Position numbers and translations under genes: made by a program | Shown: positions 5,460-32,576 of the stretch, in pieces | Layout of the letters: the number at the start of each line of letters is the position of its first letter | How positions within the stretch are numbered: position 1 is the stretch's first letter | From: Herbiconiux oxytropis | GTDB taxonomy: Bacteria > Actinomycetota > Actinomycetes > Actinomycetales > Microbacteriaceae | Assembly (NCBI RefSeq): GCF_024979315.1 | Contig: NZ_JANLCK010000004.1 | Location: forward strand, 1-64,000 | Direction: 5' to 3' | Length of the DNA stretch: 64,000 nucleotides | The notes under the pieces: generated by a model | Told to the model about the DNA's origin: nothing | Databases searched by the model: none | Seen by the model: the letters and a program-made list of their open reading frames with translations, nothing else

Positions 5460-8372
<2,913 letters not shown>

Positions 8373-8384
8373 CCCGAAAGTCTA
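8373..8384 (-). promoter_or_regulatory. Leaderless promoter of uvrA
   Basis: Minus strand: TAGACT at 8384-8379, six bases (TTCGGG), then GTG at 8372. The geometry predicts transcription starting at or next to the start codon. This gives uvrA its own promoter, independent of uvrB, downstream of the repeat array. Confidence 0.65.
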
Positions 8385-8415
8385 TGTCGACCCACCGACA
8401 CCGGCTCCCGATTAC

Positions 8416-8673
8416 GCTCTGGGCGGCATCGCCCGGAGCGTTGACCGGTACCGCGCTCTGGGCGGCATCGCCCGGAGCGTTGACCGGTACCGCGCTCTGG
8501 GCGGCATCGCCCGGAGCGTTGACCGGTACCGCGCTCTGGGCGGCATCGCCCGGAGCGTTGACCGGTACCGCGCTCTGGGCGGCATCGCCCGGAGCGTTGA
8601 CCGGTACCGCGCTCTGGGCGGCATCGCCCGGAGCGTTCACCGGCACCGCGCTGTCGGCGGCATCCGGCGTCAG
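8416..8673. repeat. 39-bp tandem hairpin array between uvrB and uvrA
   Basis: Six head-to-tail 39-bp units start at 8416, 8455, 8494, 8533, 8572 and 8611. The first five are identical. The sixth differs at two positions, and a decayed partial seventh (8650-8673) runs into the uvrB stop. Each unit contains a stem-loop: GCTC-T-GGGCG, loop GCAT, CGCCC-G-GAGC (for example 8416-8439). A 15-base linker holding the palindrome CGGTACCG follows. All frames stay open because 39 is divisible by three. The array fills almost all of the 297-base gap. The identity of the copies points to recent expansion; the function is unknown. Confidence 0.95.
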
Positions 8674-10739
8674 CTGATGTGGCCGGCCTTCTCCATCTGA
8701 CGGAGTTCGCGCTTGAGGTCCTGCACCTCGTCGCGCAAGCGGCCGGCGAGCTCGAACTTGAGCTCGGCGGCGGCCTCGAGCATCTGGCCGTTGAGGTCGG
8801 CGATGATGGCCTCGAGGTCGTTGGCGCCTTGAGCGGCGATGCCCTCGCGGCGGAGGTTGGGCGTGGGGCTCTTCTTGCCCCGGCCCGAGCGGTCGCTGAG
8901 CAGGGCCGCCGTGTCGGCGCCCTCGCGGGCGAGCGCCTCCGTGATGTCGGCGATCTTCTTGCGGAGCGGCTGCGGATCGATGCCGTGCAGGGTGTTGTAG
9001 GCCACCTGCTTCTCGCGCCGACGATCCGTCTCGTCGATGGCGAGGCGCATCGAGTCGGTCATCTTGTCGGCGTAGAGGTGCACCTCGCCCGAGACGTTGC
9101 GGGCCGCGCGGCCGATGGTCTGGATGAGCGAGGTCGACGACCGGAGGAACCCCTCCTTGTCGGCGTCGAGGATCGCCACGAGCGACACCTCGGGCAGGTC
9201 GAGGCCCTCGCGTAGGAGGTTGATGCCCACAAGCACGTCGTAGACGCCCATCCGGAGCTCGGTGAGCAGCTCGACCCGGCGCAGGGTGTCGACGTCCGAG
9301 TGCAGGTAGCGCACACGCACCCCGGCCTCGGTGAAGTAGTCGGTGAGCTCTTCCGCCATCTTCTTGGTGAGCGTCGTCACGAGCACCCGCTCGTCGCGCT
9401 CGGCCCGGATGCGGATCTCCTCCAGCAGGTCGTCGATCTGGCCCTTGGAGGGCTTGATGATGAGTGCGGGGTCGATGAGGCCGGTGGGGCGGATGATCTG
9501 CTCCACCACGCCATCCGCGATGCCCATCTCGTACCGCCCCGGCGTGGCCGAGAGGTAGACCGTCTGGCCCACGCGCTCCTTGAACTCGTTCCACTTCAGC
9601 GGCCGGTTGTCGAGCGCGCTCGGCAGCCGGAAGCCGTGGTCGACGAGGGTGCGCTTGCGCGAGGAGTCGCCCTCGTACATGGCGCCGATCTGCGGCACGG
9701 TGACGTGCGACTCGTCGATGACCACGAGGAAGTCGTCCGGGAAGTAGTCGAGCAGGCAGTGCGGCGCCTCGCCGGGGCCGCGCGCGTCGATGTGCCGGGA
9801 GTAGTTCTCGATGCCCGAGCAGAAGCCGATCTGCTCCATCATCTCGAGATCGAAGGTGGTGCGCATGCGCAGGCGCTGCGCCTCGAGCAGCTTTCCCTCG
9901 CGCTCGAGCTCGGCGAGCCGGTCGTGCAACTCGGTCTGGATGGTCTCGATGGCGCGGTGCATGACGCTCGTGTCGGCCACGTAGTGCGAGCCGGGGAACA
10001 CCGAGACGCTGTCGAGCTTCTTGACCACGTCTCCCGTGAGCGGGTGCAGCGTGTAGAGGGCCTCGATCTCGTCTCCGAACATCTCGATCCGGATCGCGAG
10101 CTCCTCGTACATCGGGATGATCTCGATCGTGTCGCCGCGCACCCGGAAGTTGCCGCGCGAGAAGTCGACGTCGTTGCGCTGGTACTGCATGGAGACGAAC
10201 TTGCGGATGAGGTGGTCGCGGTCGATCCGCTGACCCACCTGCAGCGCCATCATGGCGTTGAGGTACTGCACCGGGGCACCGAGGCCGTAGATGCAGGAGA
10301 CCGTGGAGACGACGATCACATCGCGCCGCGACAGCAGCGAGTTGGTGGTGGAGTGGCGGAGCCGCTCGACCTCCTCGTTGATCGAGGAGTCCTTCTCGAT
10401 GAAGGTGTCGGTCTGCGGCACGTAGGCCTCGGGCTGGTAGTAGTCGTAGTACGACACGAAGTACTCGACCGCGTTGTTCGGCATGAGCTCACGGAACTCG
10501 TTCGCCAGCTGCGCCGCGAGCGTCTTGTTGTGGGCCAGCACGAGGGTGGGTCGCTGCACCTGCTCGATCAGCCAGGCGGTGGTGGCCGACTTGCCCGTTC
10601 CCGTGGCGCCGAGCAGCACCACATCGGTCTCGCCCGCGTTGATGCGGCCCGCGAGCTCGGCGATGGCGGCGGGCTGGTCGCCGCTGGGGGTGTATTCACT
10701 GATGACCTCGAACGGGTGTACAGAGCGGGTCGGTTCCAT
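8670..10739 (-). CDS. uvrB: Excinuclease ABC subunit UvrB
   Basis: The 689-residue helicase-like damage-verification subunit that receives lesions from UvrA and recruits UvrC. The P-loop GATGTGKS is at residues 44-51. The beta-hairpin region [20 protein letters not shown] inserts between strands at lesions. DESHVT is the helicase motif II, and [26 protein letters not shown] and QTIGRAARN are motifs V-VI. The C-terminal UVR domain ([20 protein letters not shown]) contacts UvrC. The ATG at 10739 has no ribosome binding site but has TAAACT six bases upstream, so it is probably leaderless. It is divergent from pfkA and followed by the repeat array. Confidence 0.97.
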
Positions 10740-10779
10740 GCGTTAAGTTTAGGGAGGACCACCGACATCAATGTCGGTG
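10740..10779. promoter_or_regulatory. uvrB leaderless promoter with 20-bp palindrome
   Basis: Minus strand TAAACT (10751-10746) lies six bases from the uvrB ATG. Just upstream is a near-perfect palindrome, CACCGACAT-CA-ATGTCGGTG (10760-10779), sitting where the uvrB -35 would be and within the 100-base gap shared with pfkA. It does not match the actinobacterial SOS box. It is a candidate operator for one or both genes. Confidence 0.55.
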
Positions 10780-10839
10780 CTCGCTCACAGCGTGACGCGG
10801 AGCGACCCCTCTTCCACCACATCAGAGGCAGACATCACC

Positions 10840-21328: not shown

Positions 21329-23025
21329 GCGGGGCCGAGCAGCGTCGAGCGCAGGGTGTCGAGACCCACGCCGCCGAGGTCGAGCGCGCGGCGGTGGAAC
21401 TCCTTGGCCGAGAACGCGGATCCTTCCCGGGCGCGGAACGCGTCGCGGAGCTCCTCCCAGATGCGCTGGCCCACTTTGTACGACGGGGCCTGGCCCGGCC
21501 AGCCGAGGTAGCGGTTGACCTCGAAGCGGATGAAGGCGTCGTCCATGTTCACGTTCTGCCGCATGAACTCGAGGGCGTAGTCGGCGTCCCAGGCGCCGTC
21601 TCCCGTGAGCCGGGGCTTCTGCAGATGCACGCCGATGTCGAGCACCACGCGGGCCGCGCGCATCCGCTGCCCGTCGAGCATGCCGAGGCGGTCGGCGGGG
21701 TCGTCGAGGTAGCCGAGCTCCTCCATCAGCCGCTCGGCGTAGAGCGCCCACCCTTCGGCGTGGCCGCTCGTGCCGGCGAGCTGCCGGCGCCAGGTGTTGA
21801 GCTTCGCGCGGTTGTGCACGGCCTGGCCGATCTGCAGGTGATGGCCGGGCACGCCCTCGTGGTAGACGGTGGTGAGCTCGCGCCAGGTGTCGAACTCGGT
21901 GACACCCTCGGGCACCGACCACCACATCCGGCCGGGGCGGGAGAAGTCGTCGGTGGGGCCGGTGTAGTAGATGCCGCCCTCGTGGGTGGGCGCGATCAGG
22001 CACTCGAGGGTGCGGATCTCCTCCGGGATGTCGAAGTGGGTGGCACCGAGCTCGGCGACCGCGCGGTCGCTCGTGGCCTGCATCCAGGCCTGGAGCGCGT
22101 CGGTGCCGTGGAGCTTGCGGCTCTCGTCCTGGTCGAGGAAGGCGATGGCCTCGTGCACGGAGGCGCCGGGCAGGATCTCCTCGGCGATCGCCTCCTGCTC
22201 GCGCACCATGCGGCCGAGCTCCTCGATGCCCCACTCGTAGGTCTCGTCGAGATCGATCGTGGCGCCGAGGAAGCGGCGGGAGTGCAAGGCGTAGGCGTCG
22301 CGCCCCACGGCATCCTGCTCGCCGGCCGCGGGGGCGAGCTCGTTCTCGAGGAACTGGGCGAGTTTGGAGTAGGCCTCGGACGCTGTGCCGGCGTTGCGCT
22401 CGAGATCGGCGCGGAGGCTCGCGGGCAGCTCCCCCTCGGCGGGGGCGGCCCGAGCGGCGAGGGTGGCGAAGAAGTTGTCGGGGCCCGAGTTGCCCCGGCT
22501 CTGCAGGAGCACTTCGGCGACCTGGCGGCGGGCGGGGACGACGCCCTCGCGGAGGCCCTTGCGGAGGGTGAGGATGTAGCCGTCGACGGCGTCCTCGACG
22601 GCTTGGAGGCGCTTGGCGATCGTCTCCCAGTCGTCGGTCGAGGCGGTGGGCATGAGATCGAAGGCCTCGCGGATGTGCTGGCTGGGCGAGTCGATCACGT
22701 TCAGGTCGCGTCGCTCGAGCCCGGCCTCCGCGCTCTGAAGCGACAGCTCGAGCTCGCTCGACAGATCGGTCTTCGTGACCACGTCGACGTCGTCGGCGGG
22801 GACGGCCCTGGTGAGCTCGGCGAGCACCGCACGGGTGGCCGCGATCTTCTGCTCGTGACCCGCGGGCGAGAGGTCGCCGAAGCGGTCGTTGACCTCGGTG
22901 CGGCCGATGTAGGTGCCGAGCACGGGCTCGAGCTCGACGAGCGTGTCGACCCAGCGCTCGGCGATCCGGTCGACGTCGGTCTGGGGGCGGTTGTCGGTCG
23001 GCGGACGTAGGCTCGGACTGCTCAT
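21325..23025 (-). CDS. DUF885 family protein, putative zinc metallopeptidase-like
   Basis: A 566-residue DUF885 protein. The metal-binding-like pair YHEGVPGHHLQ (around residue 388) and HAEGWALYAERLMEELG (around 423) are the family signatures and resemble the HExxH-type arrangement of zinc peptidases. Other family blocks are GIYYTGPTDDFSRPGRMWWS and DGQRMRAARVVLDIGVH. No signal peptide is seen, so it should be cytoplasmic. Peptidase activity is inferred only. The ATG at 23025 has both TAGGGT six bases upstream and an adjoining GGAGG. It heads the unit with DUF4166 and the epimerase and is divergent from the SOS-regulated imuA. Confidence 0.88.
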   Translation of the reverse strand: MSSPSLRPPTDNRPQTDVDRIAERWVDTLVELEPVLGTYIGRTEVNDRFGDLSPAGHEQKIAATRAVLAELTRAVPADDVDVVTKTDLSSELELSLQSAEAGLERRDLNVIDSPSQHIREAFDLMPTASTDDWETIAKRLQAVEDAVDGYILTLRKGLREGVVPARRQVAEVLLQSRGNSGPDNFFATLAARAAPAEGELPASLRADLERNAGTASEAYSKLAQFLENELAPAAGEQDAVGRDAYALHSRRFLGATIDLDETYEWGIEELGRMVREQEAIAEEILPGASVHEAIAFLDQDESRKLHGTDALQAWMQATSDRAVAELGATHFDIPEEIRTLECLIAPTHEGGIYYTGPTDDFSRPGRMWWSVPEGVTEFDTWRELTTVYHEGVPGHHLQIGQAVHNRAKLNTWRRQLAGTSGHAEGWALYAERLMEELGYLDDPADRLGMLDGQRMRAARVVLDIGVHLQKPRLTGDGAWDADYALEFMRQNVNMDDAFIRFEVNRYLGWPGQAPSYKVGQRIWEELRDAFRAREGSAFSAKEFHRRALDLGGVGLDTLRSTLLGPA

Positions 23026-23037
23026 CCTCCGACCCTA
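23026..23037 (-). promoter_or_regulatory. Promoter of the DUF885 gene
   Basis: Minus strand: TAGGGT (23037-23032), six bases (CGGAGG), then ATG at 23025. The six-base spacing suggests a leaderless start, although the GGAGG could also act as a ribosome binding site if transcription begins further upstream. Confidence 0.55.
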
Positions 23038-23057
23038 TTCCTCCCTCCGGGGCCCGA

Positions 23058-23092
23058 TTGACTTCTTCGAACATATGTTCGAATATGAGGGC
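23058..23092 (+). promoter_or_regulatory. SOS box and promoter of imuA
   Basis: TTCGAACATATGTTCGAA at 23066-23083 is a perfect 18-bp palindrome and an exact match to the actinobacterial LexA box pattern (TCGAAC-N4-GTTCGA). It lies between and over a promoter with TTGACT at 23058-23063, a 17-base spacer, GAATAT at 23081-23086, then six bases to the imuA ATG at 23093. LexA binding here would block the promoter completely. It is 41 bases from the divergent DUF885 start and upstream of that gene's -10, so control of that gene is less likely. Confidence 0.92.
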
Positions 23093-23917
23093 ATGACGGA
23101 TGCCGCGCTCTCGATCTCCTCTCCCGCTCCGGCGGGCGACGAGATCCGGGCGCTGCGCTCCCGCATCCAGCAGATGCAGGCCACGAAGCTCGACAGCCGG
23201 AGCGTGCGCACGCATCCCGCCCTCGAGTCGCTCCTGCCCGGCGGAACGCTCAAGGCGGGGTCGGCCTACTCGGTCGAGCGGTCGACGGCCCTCGTGATGG
23301 CGCTCATGGCCGGGCCTTCCGCCGACGGCGTGTGGTGCGGCGTGGTGGGCATGCCCGACTTCGGGCTCGAGGCGGCGGCGGGCTTCGGCATCGACCTCGC
23401 CAGGCTCGCGCTCGTGCCGCATCCGGGCGACGAGTGGCTCACGGTCACGGCGGCGATGGCCGACGTGGTGGGGGTCGTGGTCACGGTGCCGCCCAAGCGC
23501 GTGCCGGACTCGGCGGTCGCCCGGCTGCAGGCGCGCATCCGGCAGCGGGAGGCGCTCTTGATCGTGCTCGGCGAGTGGCCGCAGAGCGAGGCGACGCTGC
23601 GCATCACCGAGAGCCGCTGGACGGGCATCGGCTCGGGGCACGGCTACCTCGCCGGGCGGCAGGCCGTGGTGTCGGCCACGGCCAGGGGCGGCCTGGGGCG
23701 GCCGCGGCGGGCACGGCTGTGGTTGCCCGACGGCGACGAGCTGTTCCGGCCCGTGGAGGGGCAGGTCGGTGCCGGGCAGGTCGGGGCTGGGCAGCTCGGT
23801 TCTGGACAGCTCGGTTCTGGACAGCTCGGTACTGGGCAGCTCGGTACTGGGCAGCTCGGCGGCGGCTCGGGCCTCGAGCGTGCCCGCCCGCGCATCCTGC
23901 ACGAGGTGGCGAGCTGA
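23093..23917 (+). CDS. imuA: ImuA-like mutasome protein (RecA-fold, P-loop lost)
   Basis: A 274-residue protein in the position and fold class of actinobacterial ImuA', a RecA-like accessory of translesion synthesis that works with ImuB and DnaE2. The core (about 30-215) has LESLLPGGTLKAGSAYSV, where the Walker A lysine is missing, then GVVGMPDFGLEAAAGFGIDL and VVVTVPPKRVPDSAVARLQA. Residues 223-257 are seven five-residue repeats of the GQLGS/T type. The ATG at 23093 fits the leaderless promoter; an in-frame ATG at 23075 lies inside the SOS box and is unlikely. Its stop overlaps the imuB ATG (TGATG). Confidence 0.9.
   Translation: MTDAALSISSPAPAGDEIRALRSRIQQMQATKLDSRSVRTHPALESLLPGGTLKAGSAYSVERSTALVMALMAGPSADGVWCGVVGMPDFGLEAAAGFGIDLARLALVPHPGDEWLTVTAAMADVVGVVVTVPPKRVPDSAVARLQARIRQREALLIVLGEWPQSEATLRITESRWTGIGSGHGYLAGRQAVVSATARGGLGRPRRARLWLPDGDELFRPVEGQVGAGQVGAGQLGSGQLGSGQLGTGQLGTGQLGGGSGLERARPRILHEVAS
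23759..23863 (+). repeat. 15-bp coding tandem repeats in imuA
   Basis: Seven in-frame 15-base units encode GQVGA, GQVGA, GQLGS, GQLGS, GQLGT, GQLGT and GQLGG (residues 223-257). Neighbouring units share silent differences, as expected of stepwise duplication. The units may vary in number between strains. Confidence 0.95.
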
Positions 23918-25527
23918 TGGCGCGCGGGAGACGAGCCGGCGCAGCCGGCCGCAGCACGCCGGTGCGGAGCATGGTGGTGTGGTGCCCCGACTGGCCGGTG
24001 GTGGCCATGGCGAGGGCCGAGGGCGTGGCCGAGGATGCGGTGCTGGCGGCCGACGAGTTCCTGGCCGTCATCGAGAAGGGCCTCGTCTACGCCTGTTCGG
24101 CGGCCGCTCGTGCCGACGGCGTGCGGCGGGGGCTGCGCATCCGCGAGGCCCAGGCGCGCTCGCCGCGGCTGCGGGTGTTCGAGCTCGACACCGCGGTGGT
24201 CAATCGCGCCTTCGAGCCGGTGATCATGGCGCTCGAGGAGCTGAGCCCGGGCGTGCAGGTCGTGCGGCCGGGCACGTGCGCCCTGCGGGCCAGGGGGCCG
24301 GCGCGCTTCTACGGCGACGAGGAGGGCGCTGCGGTGGCCTTCCTCGCCCGGCTCGCCGAGATCGGGGTGACGGATGCGCGGATCGGCATCGCCGACGGCC
24401 TCTTCGCCGCCGACCACGCGGCCCGCCTGCCGGGCCGGGAGCTCGTGCGGATCGTGCCGCCCGGGGGGTCGGGAGACTTCCTCGCTCCCCTGCCGGTGGG
24501 GTTCCTCGGGGGGCTCGAAGGTGCCGACGAGCTCATCCCCCTGCTCGGCCGGCTCGGCATCCACTCGCTCGGCGAGTTCGCCCGGCTGCCGCTCGAAGAC
24601 GTGCAGAGTCGCTTCGGCGACGACGGTGCCAGGGCTCACCTGAAGGCCTCGGGGCGCGACGGCCAGCCCGTCGTGCCGCGCATCCCGCCCGAGGTGCGCG
24701 AGAGCGTGAGCGAGTTCGAGCCGCCGCTCGACCGCATCGACCAGGTGACCTTCGGCATCCGCGCCGCGGCCGACCTGTTCGTGCAGAGGCTCTCGGAGTC
24801 GCGGCTCGTCTGCACGGGCATCCGGGTGGAGCTCACGAGCGAGCGCGGGCAGGTGCGCGAGCGCAGCTGGCTGCATCCGCGCTGGTTCAGCTCCTCCGAC
24901 GTGGTCGACCGGGTGCGCTGGCAGCTGCAGGGCGGCGACGCGATCGAGACGGCGCTCGAGTCCGGCATCAGCCGGGTGCGCGTGATCGCCGAAGCGGTCG
25001 ACGCGAGCGCGAAGCACGAGACGGGCCTGTGGGGCAGCGGATCGGAGGAGCGCGTGCACCACGGGATGGCCCGCCTGCAGAGCATGGTGGGCCACGAGGG
25101 CGTGCTCACGGCGACGATCGGCGGGGGCAGGGCGCCGGGCGAGCGCATCCGGTTCGCGCCCTGGGGAGACCGCGTGGAGGCATCCGGAGCCGGCGCACCG
25201 TGGCCGGGGAGTCTGCCTCCTCCCCTGCCCAGCACCGTGTTCGAGCAGCCGCGGGTCGTGCAGGTCGCGACGGCCGAGGGCGAGCCGGTGGAGGTCTCTG
25301 CGCGCGGCGAACTCTCGGCGGCTCCGGCGCTGTTCTCCGAGACGGGTGCGCTGCACGACCTCAGGCCGCTGAGTGCCTGGGCGGGCCCGTGGCCCACCGA
25401 GGAGCGCTGGTGGGATGCGACGGCCCACCGCCGGGTCGACCGCTTCCAGGTGGTCGACGACTGCGGCGGCGCCTGGCTGCTCGCCCTCGAGAACCACCGC
25501 TGGCGCGCGGAGGCCCGCTATGACTGA
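23917..25527 (+). CDS. imuB: ImuB, catalytically inactive Y-family polymerase homologue
   Basis: A 536-residue protein of the ImuB family, the hub linking ImuA, DnaE2 and the sliding clamp during damage-induced mutagenesis. The Y-family fold is recognisable (VVWCPDWPVVAMA, DARIGIADGLFAADHAA, GIHSLGEFARLPLEDVQSRF), but the catalytic acidic residues of active Y-family enzymes are absent (WCPDWP and RARGPARFYGDE stand where DxD and SxDE would be). ETGLWG at 368-373 resembles the QLPLWG clamp-binding motif of the mycobacterial protein. The ATG at 23917 overlaps the imuA TGA by one base. It is cotranscribed with imuA; dnaE2 follows after 135 bases. Confidence 0.93.
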   Translation: MARGRRAGAAGRSTPVRSMVVWCPDWPVVAMARAEGVAEDAVLAADEFLAVIEKGLVYACSAAARADGVRRGLRIREAQARSPRLRVFELDTAVVNRAFEPVIMALEELSPGVQVVRPGTCALRARGPARFYGDEEGAAVAFLARLAEIGVTDARIGIADGLFAADHAARLPGRELVRIVPPGGSGDFLAPLPVGFLGGLEGADELIPLLGRLGIHSLGEFARLPLEDVQSRFGDDGARAHLKASGRDGQPVVPRIPPEVRESVSEFEPPLDRIDQVTFGIRAAADLFVQRLSESRLVCTGIRVELTSERGQVRERSWLHPRWFSSSDVVDRVRWQLQGGDAIETALESGISRVRVIAEAVDASAKHETGLWGSGSEERVHHGMARLQSMVGHEGVLTATIGGGRAPGERIRFAPWGDRVEASGAGAPWPGSLPPPLPSTVFEQPRVVQVATAEGEPVEVSARGELSAAPALFSETGALHDLRPLSAWAGPWPTEERWWDATAHRRVDRFQVVDDCGGAWLLALENHRWRAEARYD

Positions 25528-32061: not shown

Positions 32062-32514
32062 ATGACCGACGCATCGGACTCTTCACCTCTCGACGTCATG
32101 GAGGTGTTCGGCTACCGCGGCATCGGCACGCTCGCCGAGCGCATGGGCATCGAGTTCCTCGAGCTCACGGCCGAGCGCGCCGTGGCCAGGATGCCCGTAG
32201 AGGGCAACACACAGCCGCTCGGTCTGGTGCACGGCGGCGCCTACGTGGTGCTCGCCGAGAGCCTCGGCTCCACGGCGGCGAACCTGCACGCGGGCCCGGG
32301 CAAGGTGGCGATGGGGATCGAGATCAACGCGAGCCACTCCGGATCGGCCACCCAGGGCTGGGTGATCGGCACCTGCACGGCCATCCACCTCGGCCGGAGC
32401 CTCGCGACCCATCAGATCGAGGTCGACGACGAGAACGGCCGCCGGCTCTCGACGGTCCGCATCACGAACATCATCAAGGACCGACGGCCGGACCAGGTCT
32501 TCGAGAAGAGCTAG
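32062..32514 (+). CDS. PaaI-family hotdog thioesterase
   Basis: A 150-residue single-domain hotdog protein. The family motif HGGAYVVLAESLGSTAAN contains the catalytic-region HGG...E pattern, followed by EINASHSGSATQGWVIGTC and TVRITNIIK. Such enzymes cleave acyl-CoA thioesters (phenylacetyl-, hydroxybenzoyl- or DHNA-CoA); the substrate cannot be read from sequence. DHNA-CoA hydrolysis for menaquinone synthesis is one possibility. AGGAA lies about nine bases before the ATG. It is divergent from polA and convergent with pdtaR. Its stop codon lies at the start of a 16-bp repeat array. Confidence 0.88.
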   Translation: MTDASDSSPLDVMEVFGYRGIGTLAERMGIEFLELTAERAVARMPVEGNTQPLGLVHGGAYVVLAESLGSTAANLHAGPGKVAMGIEINASHSGSATQGWVIGTCTAIHLGRSLATHQIEVDDENGRRLSTVRITNIIKDRRPDQVFEKS

Positions 32515-32576
32515 CGCAGAGAAGAGCCAGCGCAGAGTAGAGCCAGCGCAGAGAAAAGCTAGCGCAGAGAAGAGCG
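32513..32576. repeat. Four 16-bp tandem repeats straddling a stop codon
   Basis: Units start at 32513, 32529, 32545 and 32561 with consensus AGCGCAGAGAAGAGCC; each differs from the consensus at no more than two positions. The first unit overlaps the thioesterase TAG, and the coding sequence just before it (GAGAAGAGCT) looks like the seed of the array. It fills most of the gap to the convergent pdtaR stop. Confidence 0.93.

Follow-up and report, generated by a model that had tools for sequence, protein, structure and literature searches.

The window analysed here, a 64,000-nt stretch of Herbiconiux oxytropis DNA, contains the genes uvrA and uvrB, both encoded on the minus strand and both identified through NCBIfam equivalog models. 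The gap between them holds a tandem array of 39-bp units, which ends 14 nt before the RecA-NDp motif of uvrA. The features of this region are as follows:

5460 to 8372, minus strand: uvrA, GTG start (open reading frame; NF001503/TIGR00630, matched using window positions 5460 to 8348)
8379 to 8400, minus strand: RecA-NDp (PafBC-type) promoter of uvrA, TGTCGGTG-N8-TAGACT (pattern match)
8410 to 8419, minus strand: the block GAGCGTAATC, exact in 12 of the 16 genus genomes
8415 to 8419, minus strand: GAGCG, where the right arm of the last hairpin has its outer end and the conserved block upstream of the uvrA promoter starts (AGCG at 8415 to 8418)
8415 to 8664, minus strand: 39-bp tandem array, 6.4 copies, 98% match (TRF)
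8440 to 8634, minus strand: five exact units GCTCCGGGCGATGCCGCCCAGAGCGCGGTACCGGTCAAC in the uvr-sense register (exact match positions)
8635 to 8669, minus strand: decayed distal partial unit, directly 3' of the uvrB stop codon (read from the sequence, with a 26-mer pattern match at 8639 to 8664)
8670 to 10739, minus strand: uvrB (NF003673/TIGR00631)
10746 to 10767, minus strand: RecA-NDp (PafBC-type) promoter of uvrB (pattern match)
10782 to 10787, minus strand: TGAGCG in the uvrB promoter, likewise spaced 14 nt from the RecA-NDp motif

The array was the highest-scoring tandem repeat found by TRF in the window. Read in the register of the plus strand, five exact copies start from 8416, a sixth copy (8611) differs by two changes and a partial copy follows from 8650; in the 26-mer match within the partial unit, GACAGCG stands where the units have CAGAGCG. 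TRF and direct reading of the sequence thereby confirmed the layout proposed by a sequence-only reading of this locus, namely five exact copies followed by a copy with two changes and by a decayed partial. With near-identical 39-bp units arranged head to tail (6.4 copies at 98%) upstream of, and 14 nt away from, a predicted promoter motif, the array has the make-up of a minisatellite, for which units of 10–100 bp are expected. When TRF was run on the window and on twenty 20-kb stretches of the same genome, covering three contigs, 13 rows scored at least 200. Twelve of these come from three other stretches, with matches of 73–88%, six of them scoring above the array, which is the sole row with both a score of at least 200 and a match of at least 95%. 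The repetition is not due to chance. The copy number is taken from a single draft assembly of 32 contigs and may therefore be misassembled.

A DNA search of the genome with the array as query returned the array itself and one weak match of 33 bp (88%) on contig C23, and a 26-base unit pattern allowing up to three mismatches occurred at six places genome-wide, all inside the array. The genome-wide search that the sequence-only reading had proposed thus located the unit at a single locus. Across the family, a DNA search with window positions 8380 to 8495 matched 18 of 398 genomes, of which eight belong to the genus (this one included) and ten, from outside it, gave short, weak matches (24–41 bp, E 1.7e-4 to 7e-4). 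The array query also matched G011 (27 bp) and contig C37 of G013 (34 bp), in sequence that looked unrelated by eye. Among Rfam families, 16 matches were obtained at E ≤ 1 for positions 8300 to 8800, none at the gathering score, the best reaching 43.1 bits against 168.

PafBC-type promoters and a conserved AGCG block

The RecA-NDp consensus, given in an excerpt of PMC5656591 as tTGTCRgtg-8 nt-TannnT, is matched at uvrA, the base ahead of the motif being G and not T. The pattern matched twice in the window, before uvrA and before uvrB, and never in 100 shuffles; genome-wide it gave 14 matches, and the reversed pattern gave none. Judged by eye from the translations, the genes downstream include recA-like, radA-like, dnaX-like, exonuclease-like and UvrD/AdnA-like genes in addition to uvrA and uvrB. 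Some matches precede unrecognised or implausible open reading frames, so not all of them need be promoters. The start codons of uvrA and uvrB both lie 6 nt past the −10 element, and their mRNAs are therefore probably leaderless or nearly so. The genome also encodes two neighbouring WYL-WCX proteins, one with the Pfam domain HTH_PafC, which fit a PafBC pair. In mycobacteria, according to the portion of PMC8223512 available, uvrA and the UvrABC complex are members of the PafBC regulon and uvrA is under both PafBC and SOS control. No LexA-type box (CGAACN4GTTCG) was seen at uvrA or uvrB, the lone instance in the window being at 23068.

This box accompanies ImuA'-like and ImuB-like open reading frames (assigned by eye) at 22913 to 25527 on the plus strand, and together they likely form an SOS mutagenesis cassette near the uvr genes. 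Two further repeats were observed in the window: a 15-bp repeat of 6.7 copies (23759 to 23859) within the ImuA'-like frame, which encodes a GQLG[ST] five-residue repeat near the C-terminus, and a 16-bp repeat of 4.6 copies (32503 to 32575), which starts at the 3' end of a thioesterase-like frame and faces a response-regulator-like one, both named by eye.

Alignment of the genus uvrA promoters on the RecA-NDp motif revealed AGCG 14 nt upstream of TGTC in all 16. The same tetranucleotide was found at equal spacing in 16 of 16 uvrB promoters, in 15 of them by pattern and in G010 (TGTCGGCGG) by reading, and at none of the 12 other RecA-NDp matches of the H. oxytropis genome. Outside the genus no enrichment of AGCG was detected: it occurred at −21 to −14 in 5 of 26 promoters, against 4 of 26 at −41 to −34 and 1 of 26 at −55 to −48. 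These counts cover 26 of 27 loci, L151 having been omitted as it has no motif, and L137 was scored at a downstream pseudo-match. Within the range tested, the fixed-spacing AGCG thus appears to be confined to the genus. The promoter-proximal hairpin extends with its right arm into the AGCG block, so that the repeat borders on, and partly consists of, DNA from the promoter side of uvrA. The sequence-only reading had been correct to expect a separate uvrA promoter, here represented by the RecA-NDp motif, but had assigned the array to the uvrB 3' transcript, when in fact the array directly abuts the promoter and has no special tie to the 3' end of uvrB.

Variation of the uvrB-uvrA gap among relatives

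All 16 genus genomes, which represent one genome per species, gave matches to both uvrA and uvrB. The interval between the uvrB stop and the RecA-NDp motif of uvrA could be measured in 14 of them, the motif of G009 and G012 lying beyond the fetched stretch of ~1.49 kb. It is 24 bp in G005, 33 in G003, 57 in G006, 70 in G008, 92 in G001, 104 in G002, 146 in G010, 197 in G013, 269 here, 321 in G011, 383 in G015, 464 in G007, 506 in G004 and 516 in G014. On these sequences, the promoter block is conserved across the genus and the DNA upstream of it is variable. Long palindromes of the ATGAGAATC...GATTCTCATACCGTTT type were seen in the gaps of G011 and G015 (loci L091 and L090). By UvrB, the nearest named relatives among the matches listed were Curtobacterium, a member of the Microbacteriaceae, Microbacterium and Microcella (83–84%).

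The closest genome is that of the sister species G014, with 97.1% identity over 3,582 nt of uvrA and uvrB. It has two related units, consisting of one full hairpin and one further right arm with an alignable linker, and the same arrangement was found in G013 (90.0%). Counted as right arms, there are about seven here against two in G014; the copy number of about seven against two in G014 and G013 is a species-level comparison, with one genome each. By eye, the remaining 13 genus genomes have a single half-unit at most. TRF analysis of 46 uvrA upstream regions (43 distinct, from 16 genus and 27 other family genomes) found the 39-bp array here only. Eight other distinct regions gave some TRF row, and their units were compared with the array by reading alone; one of them, in G002 of the same genus, is a weak 35-bp repeat of 2.4 copies (75%). 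In another genus (G023, locus L143), a GC-rich 13-bp array of 7.5 copies (96%) was observed upstream of uvrA, and the uvrA promoter of G083 (locus L141) has a tandem duplication, with a 17-bp period, of the TGTCAGTG half of its RecA-NDp motif.

In G014 a 124-aa open reading frame on the opposite strand, which had no Pfam match, lies between uvrB and the two units, and G007 has a related frame at this position (36% identity over 81 aa). The most economical history is a loss of the frame here, through which the units came to lie next to uvrB. The trees support this weakly to moderately: the node separating G007 from the others has a support of 0.36 in the uvrB tree, built from all 16 genomes, and of 0.84–0.85 in a concatenated tree of 12, four uvrA loci having no match to the anchor motif. 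G013 is placed differently by the two trees.

Folding of the repeat unit

The unit folds into a 10-bp stem with a four-base loop, as the sequence-only reading had described, with one imperfect pair that is a C·A mismatch on the minus (uvr-sense) strand and a G·U wobble on the plus strand. A single unit folded as RNA gave −17.4 kcal/mol (z −1.7 against shuffles) in the uvr sense and −20.0 kcal/mol (z −2.0) on the plus strand. Folded as DNA, the values were −9.7 and −11.5 kcal/mol (z −1.4 and −1.9), and 26 and 6 of 200 shuffles, respectively, folded at least as well. A single-unit hairpin thus exceeds its shuffles in strength by a modest margin only, and this makes it a less convincing driver of slippage. 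Folds of the whole array gave z −8.1 and −10.6 (50 shuffles each), scores that overstate the structure because shuffling destroys the repetition.

Folding was also compared at the place of the unit across the genus, using segments of unequal length chosen by us. Strong hairpins were obtained in 3 of the 16 species (z −4.7 here, designated G000, −2.9 in G014 and −6.6 in G013), weaker ones in G009 (z −1.9) and G007 (z −1.5), and unremarkable folds in the other 11 (z −1.3 to +1.6). Scans for sigma-70 promoters and U-tailed terminators found nothing in 8300 to 8800.

Origin and possible roles of the array

We propose that the array is a recent head-to-tail expansion of the segment directly upstream of the PafBC-type uvrA promoter, in other words a promoter-proximal minisatellite, and we regard this as the probable explanation, held with some reserve. 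It is supported by the two units of G014 and G013 against six hairpins and a partial here, by the identity of the inner copies, by their confinement to one locus and by their adjacency to the promoter. The strong hairpin kept in three species counts against this, as the hairpin itself could be under selection. The suggestion in the sequence-only reading of a slippage-prone locus gains support from the contrast in right arms with the sister species.

The same reading had offered protection or termination of the uvrB mRNA, according to which a bank of tailless (I-shaped) hairpins would end or protect the uvrB transcript and shield the uvrA promoter from read-through. The position is suitable: the first full hairpin starts at 8634, 35 nt past the uvrB stop (whose codon ends at 8670), and according to the excerpt seen of PMC12288462, a review, mycobacterial genes depend mainly on I-shaped terminators situated at most 50 bp from the stop codon. 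Insulation would make sense where both uvrB and uvrA have a damage-type promoter, and other species may have replacements, since in G003 another hairpin, of 8 pairs, spans the uvrB stop (−12.2 kcal/mol, z −1.3) and the gaps of G010, G011, G013 and G015 contain, by eye, palindromes of other sequence. The hairpin, however, has no T-run, the 24-bp gap of G005 has no notable hairpin, and the uvrB-sense stem has a C·A mismatch in both G000 and G014, each of which is a wobble pair on the opposite strand. The open reading frame between the units and uvrB in G014, together with unremarkable folds in 11 of 16 species, makes a dedicated uvrB terminator less likely, and we consider this role unlikely; the appearance of the array fits a locally expanded repeat better than it fits a uvrB 3'-end signal. 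A frameshifted UvrB tail, also raised by the sequence-only reading, found no support, as the normal frame stops at 8670 to 8672 and the matching out-of-frame reading frame in G014 ends before the units. The strand preference of the stem would suit instead a structured element of a plus-strand RNA, once the 5' leader of the small membrane-protein-like frame that reads away from uvrA in G014 and G007: the frame lies beside the units in G014, its relative is present in G007, and the plus-strand hairpins are the stronger ones in G000 and G014. Yet the array has expanded here, where the frame is absent, the frame is without a match in G013 despite the two units there, selection cannot be read from just two wobble changes, and a sigma-70-type promoter was not found in 8300 to 8800. 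Such a leader seems highly improbable.

A regulatory array was considered as well, in which the GAGCG and inverse CGCTC of each unit would add or titrate sites of a putative factor tuning uvrA induction. This draws on the AGCG element being fixed in every genus uvrA and uvrB promoter and missing from the 12 other RecA-NDp matches, and on the six GAGCG and six CGCTC in the 269-bp gap. It has against it the lack of AGCG enrichment outside the genus, the absence of the TAATC half from the repeated units, and the weakness of a 5-mer as evidence in GC-rich DNA. The DNA helix makes one turn per 10.5 bp. A 39-bp unit thus spans about 3.7 turns, so that successive sites would rotate around the helix, and the one-sided, in-register protein binding envisaged in the sequence-only reading is unlikely on this geometry. 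We judge a regulatory array decidedly unlikely. Its extension, an array acting as a copy-number dial on nucleotide excision repair, where slippage gain or loss of uvr-specific AGCG units would reversibly shift damage-induced uvrA output and hence the repair capacity of subpopulations, is in our opinion very doubtful. As to a dispersed palindromic element of the REP/BIME kind, the unit is palindromic, GC-rich, ~40 bp long and intergenic, but such elements require many dispersed copies and this unit has a single locus. GTAG and CGTC, named as tags of the REP superfamily in the section consulted of PMC3733652, are both absent from either strand of the unit on direct reading, and this assignment is hardly credible.

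Under the proposed minisatellite expansion, a two-unit ancestral segment would have expanded by replication slippage or unequal recombination, with the GC-rich hairpin that each unit forms as a possible aid. This hairpin would then be a by-product and not a dedicated uvrB terminator, and copy number would be expected to vary between strains. Its effect on uvrA expression would be at most a modest modulation, given that relatives manage without the array and that here the adjoining core promoter and AGCG block are intact.

Comparison with known systems

No tandem array at a uvrA promoter was found in the literature searched, which is no proof of absence. The promoters correspond to the RecA-NDp/PafBC promoters described in the accessible parts of PMC5656591, PMC6789036 and PMC8223512 in having the same bipartite motif, and a PafBC-like pair is encoded here; they differ in that the uvrA and uvrB promoters of the genus have an additional fixed-spacing AGCG, and that an array adjoins the promoter of uvrA. 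Even if the array is neutral, its comparison among relatives reveals a genus-wide fixed-spacing element common to both PafBC-type promoters. The units resemble the mycobacterial I-shaped terminators, as portrayed in the excerpt of PMC12288462, in that they form GC-rich hairpins closely following a stop codon and have no U-run. Unlike these, the unit seems in relatives to stay beside the uvrA promoter and not with the end of uvrB.

The closest published parallel is provided by the promoter tandem repeats of Mycobacterium tuberculosis, for which the text available from PMC12817950 lists a 58-bp repeat at lpdA, a 54–56-bp repeat at cysG-efpA and one at dop. It reports that their copy number changes within isogenic populations and proposes a change of expression. 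Both kinds of repeat are arranged head to tail upstream of actinobacterial genes (12 bp before lpdA and 29 bp before cysG in M. tuberculosis); there, copy number differs between lineages, and leaderless promoters are mentioned for lpdA and cysG. In contrast to variation within isogenic populations, the difference here is between species only; the gene concerned is uvrA, and every unit is able to fold into a hairpin. The array may serve as a typing marker for the species. If its copy number varies and alters uvrA expression, DNA-repair capacity could shift reversibly through a fast-mutating repeat, as the same excerpt proposes for M. tuberculosis.
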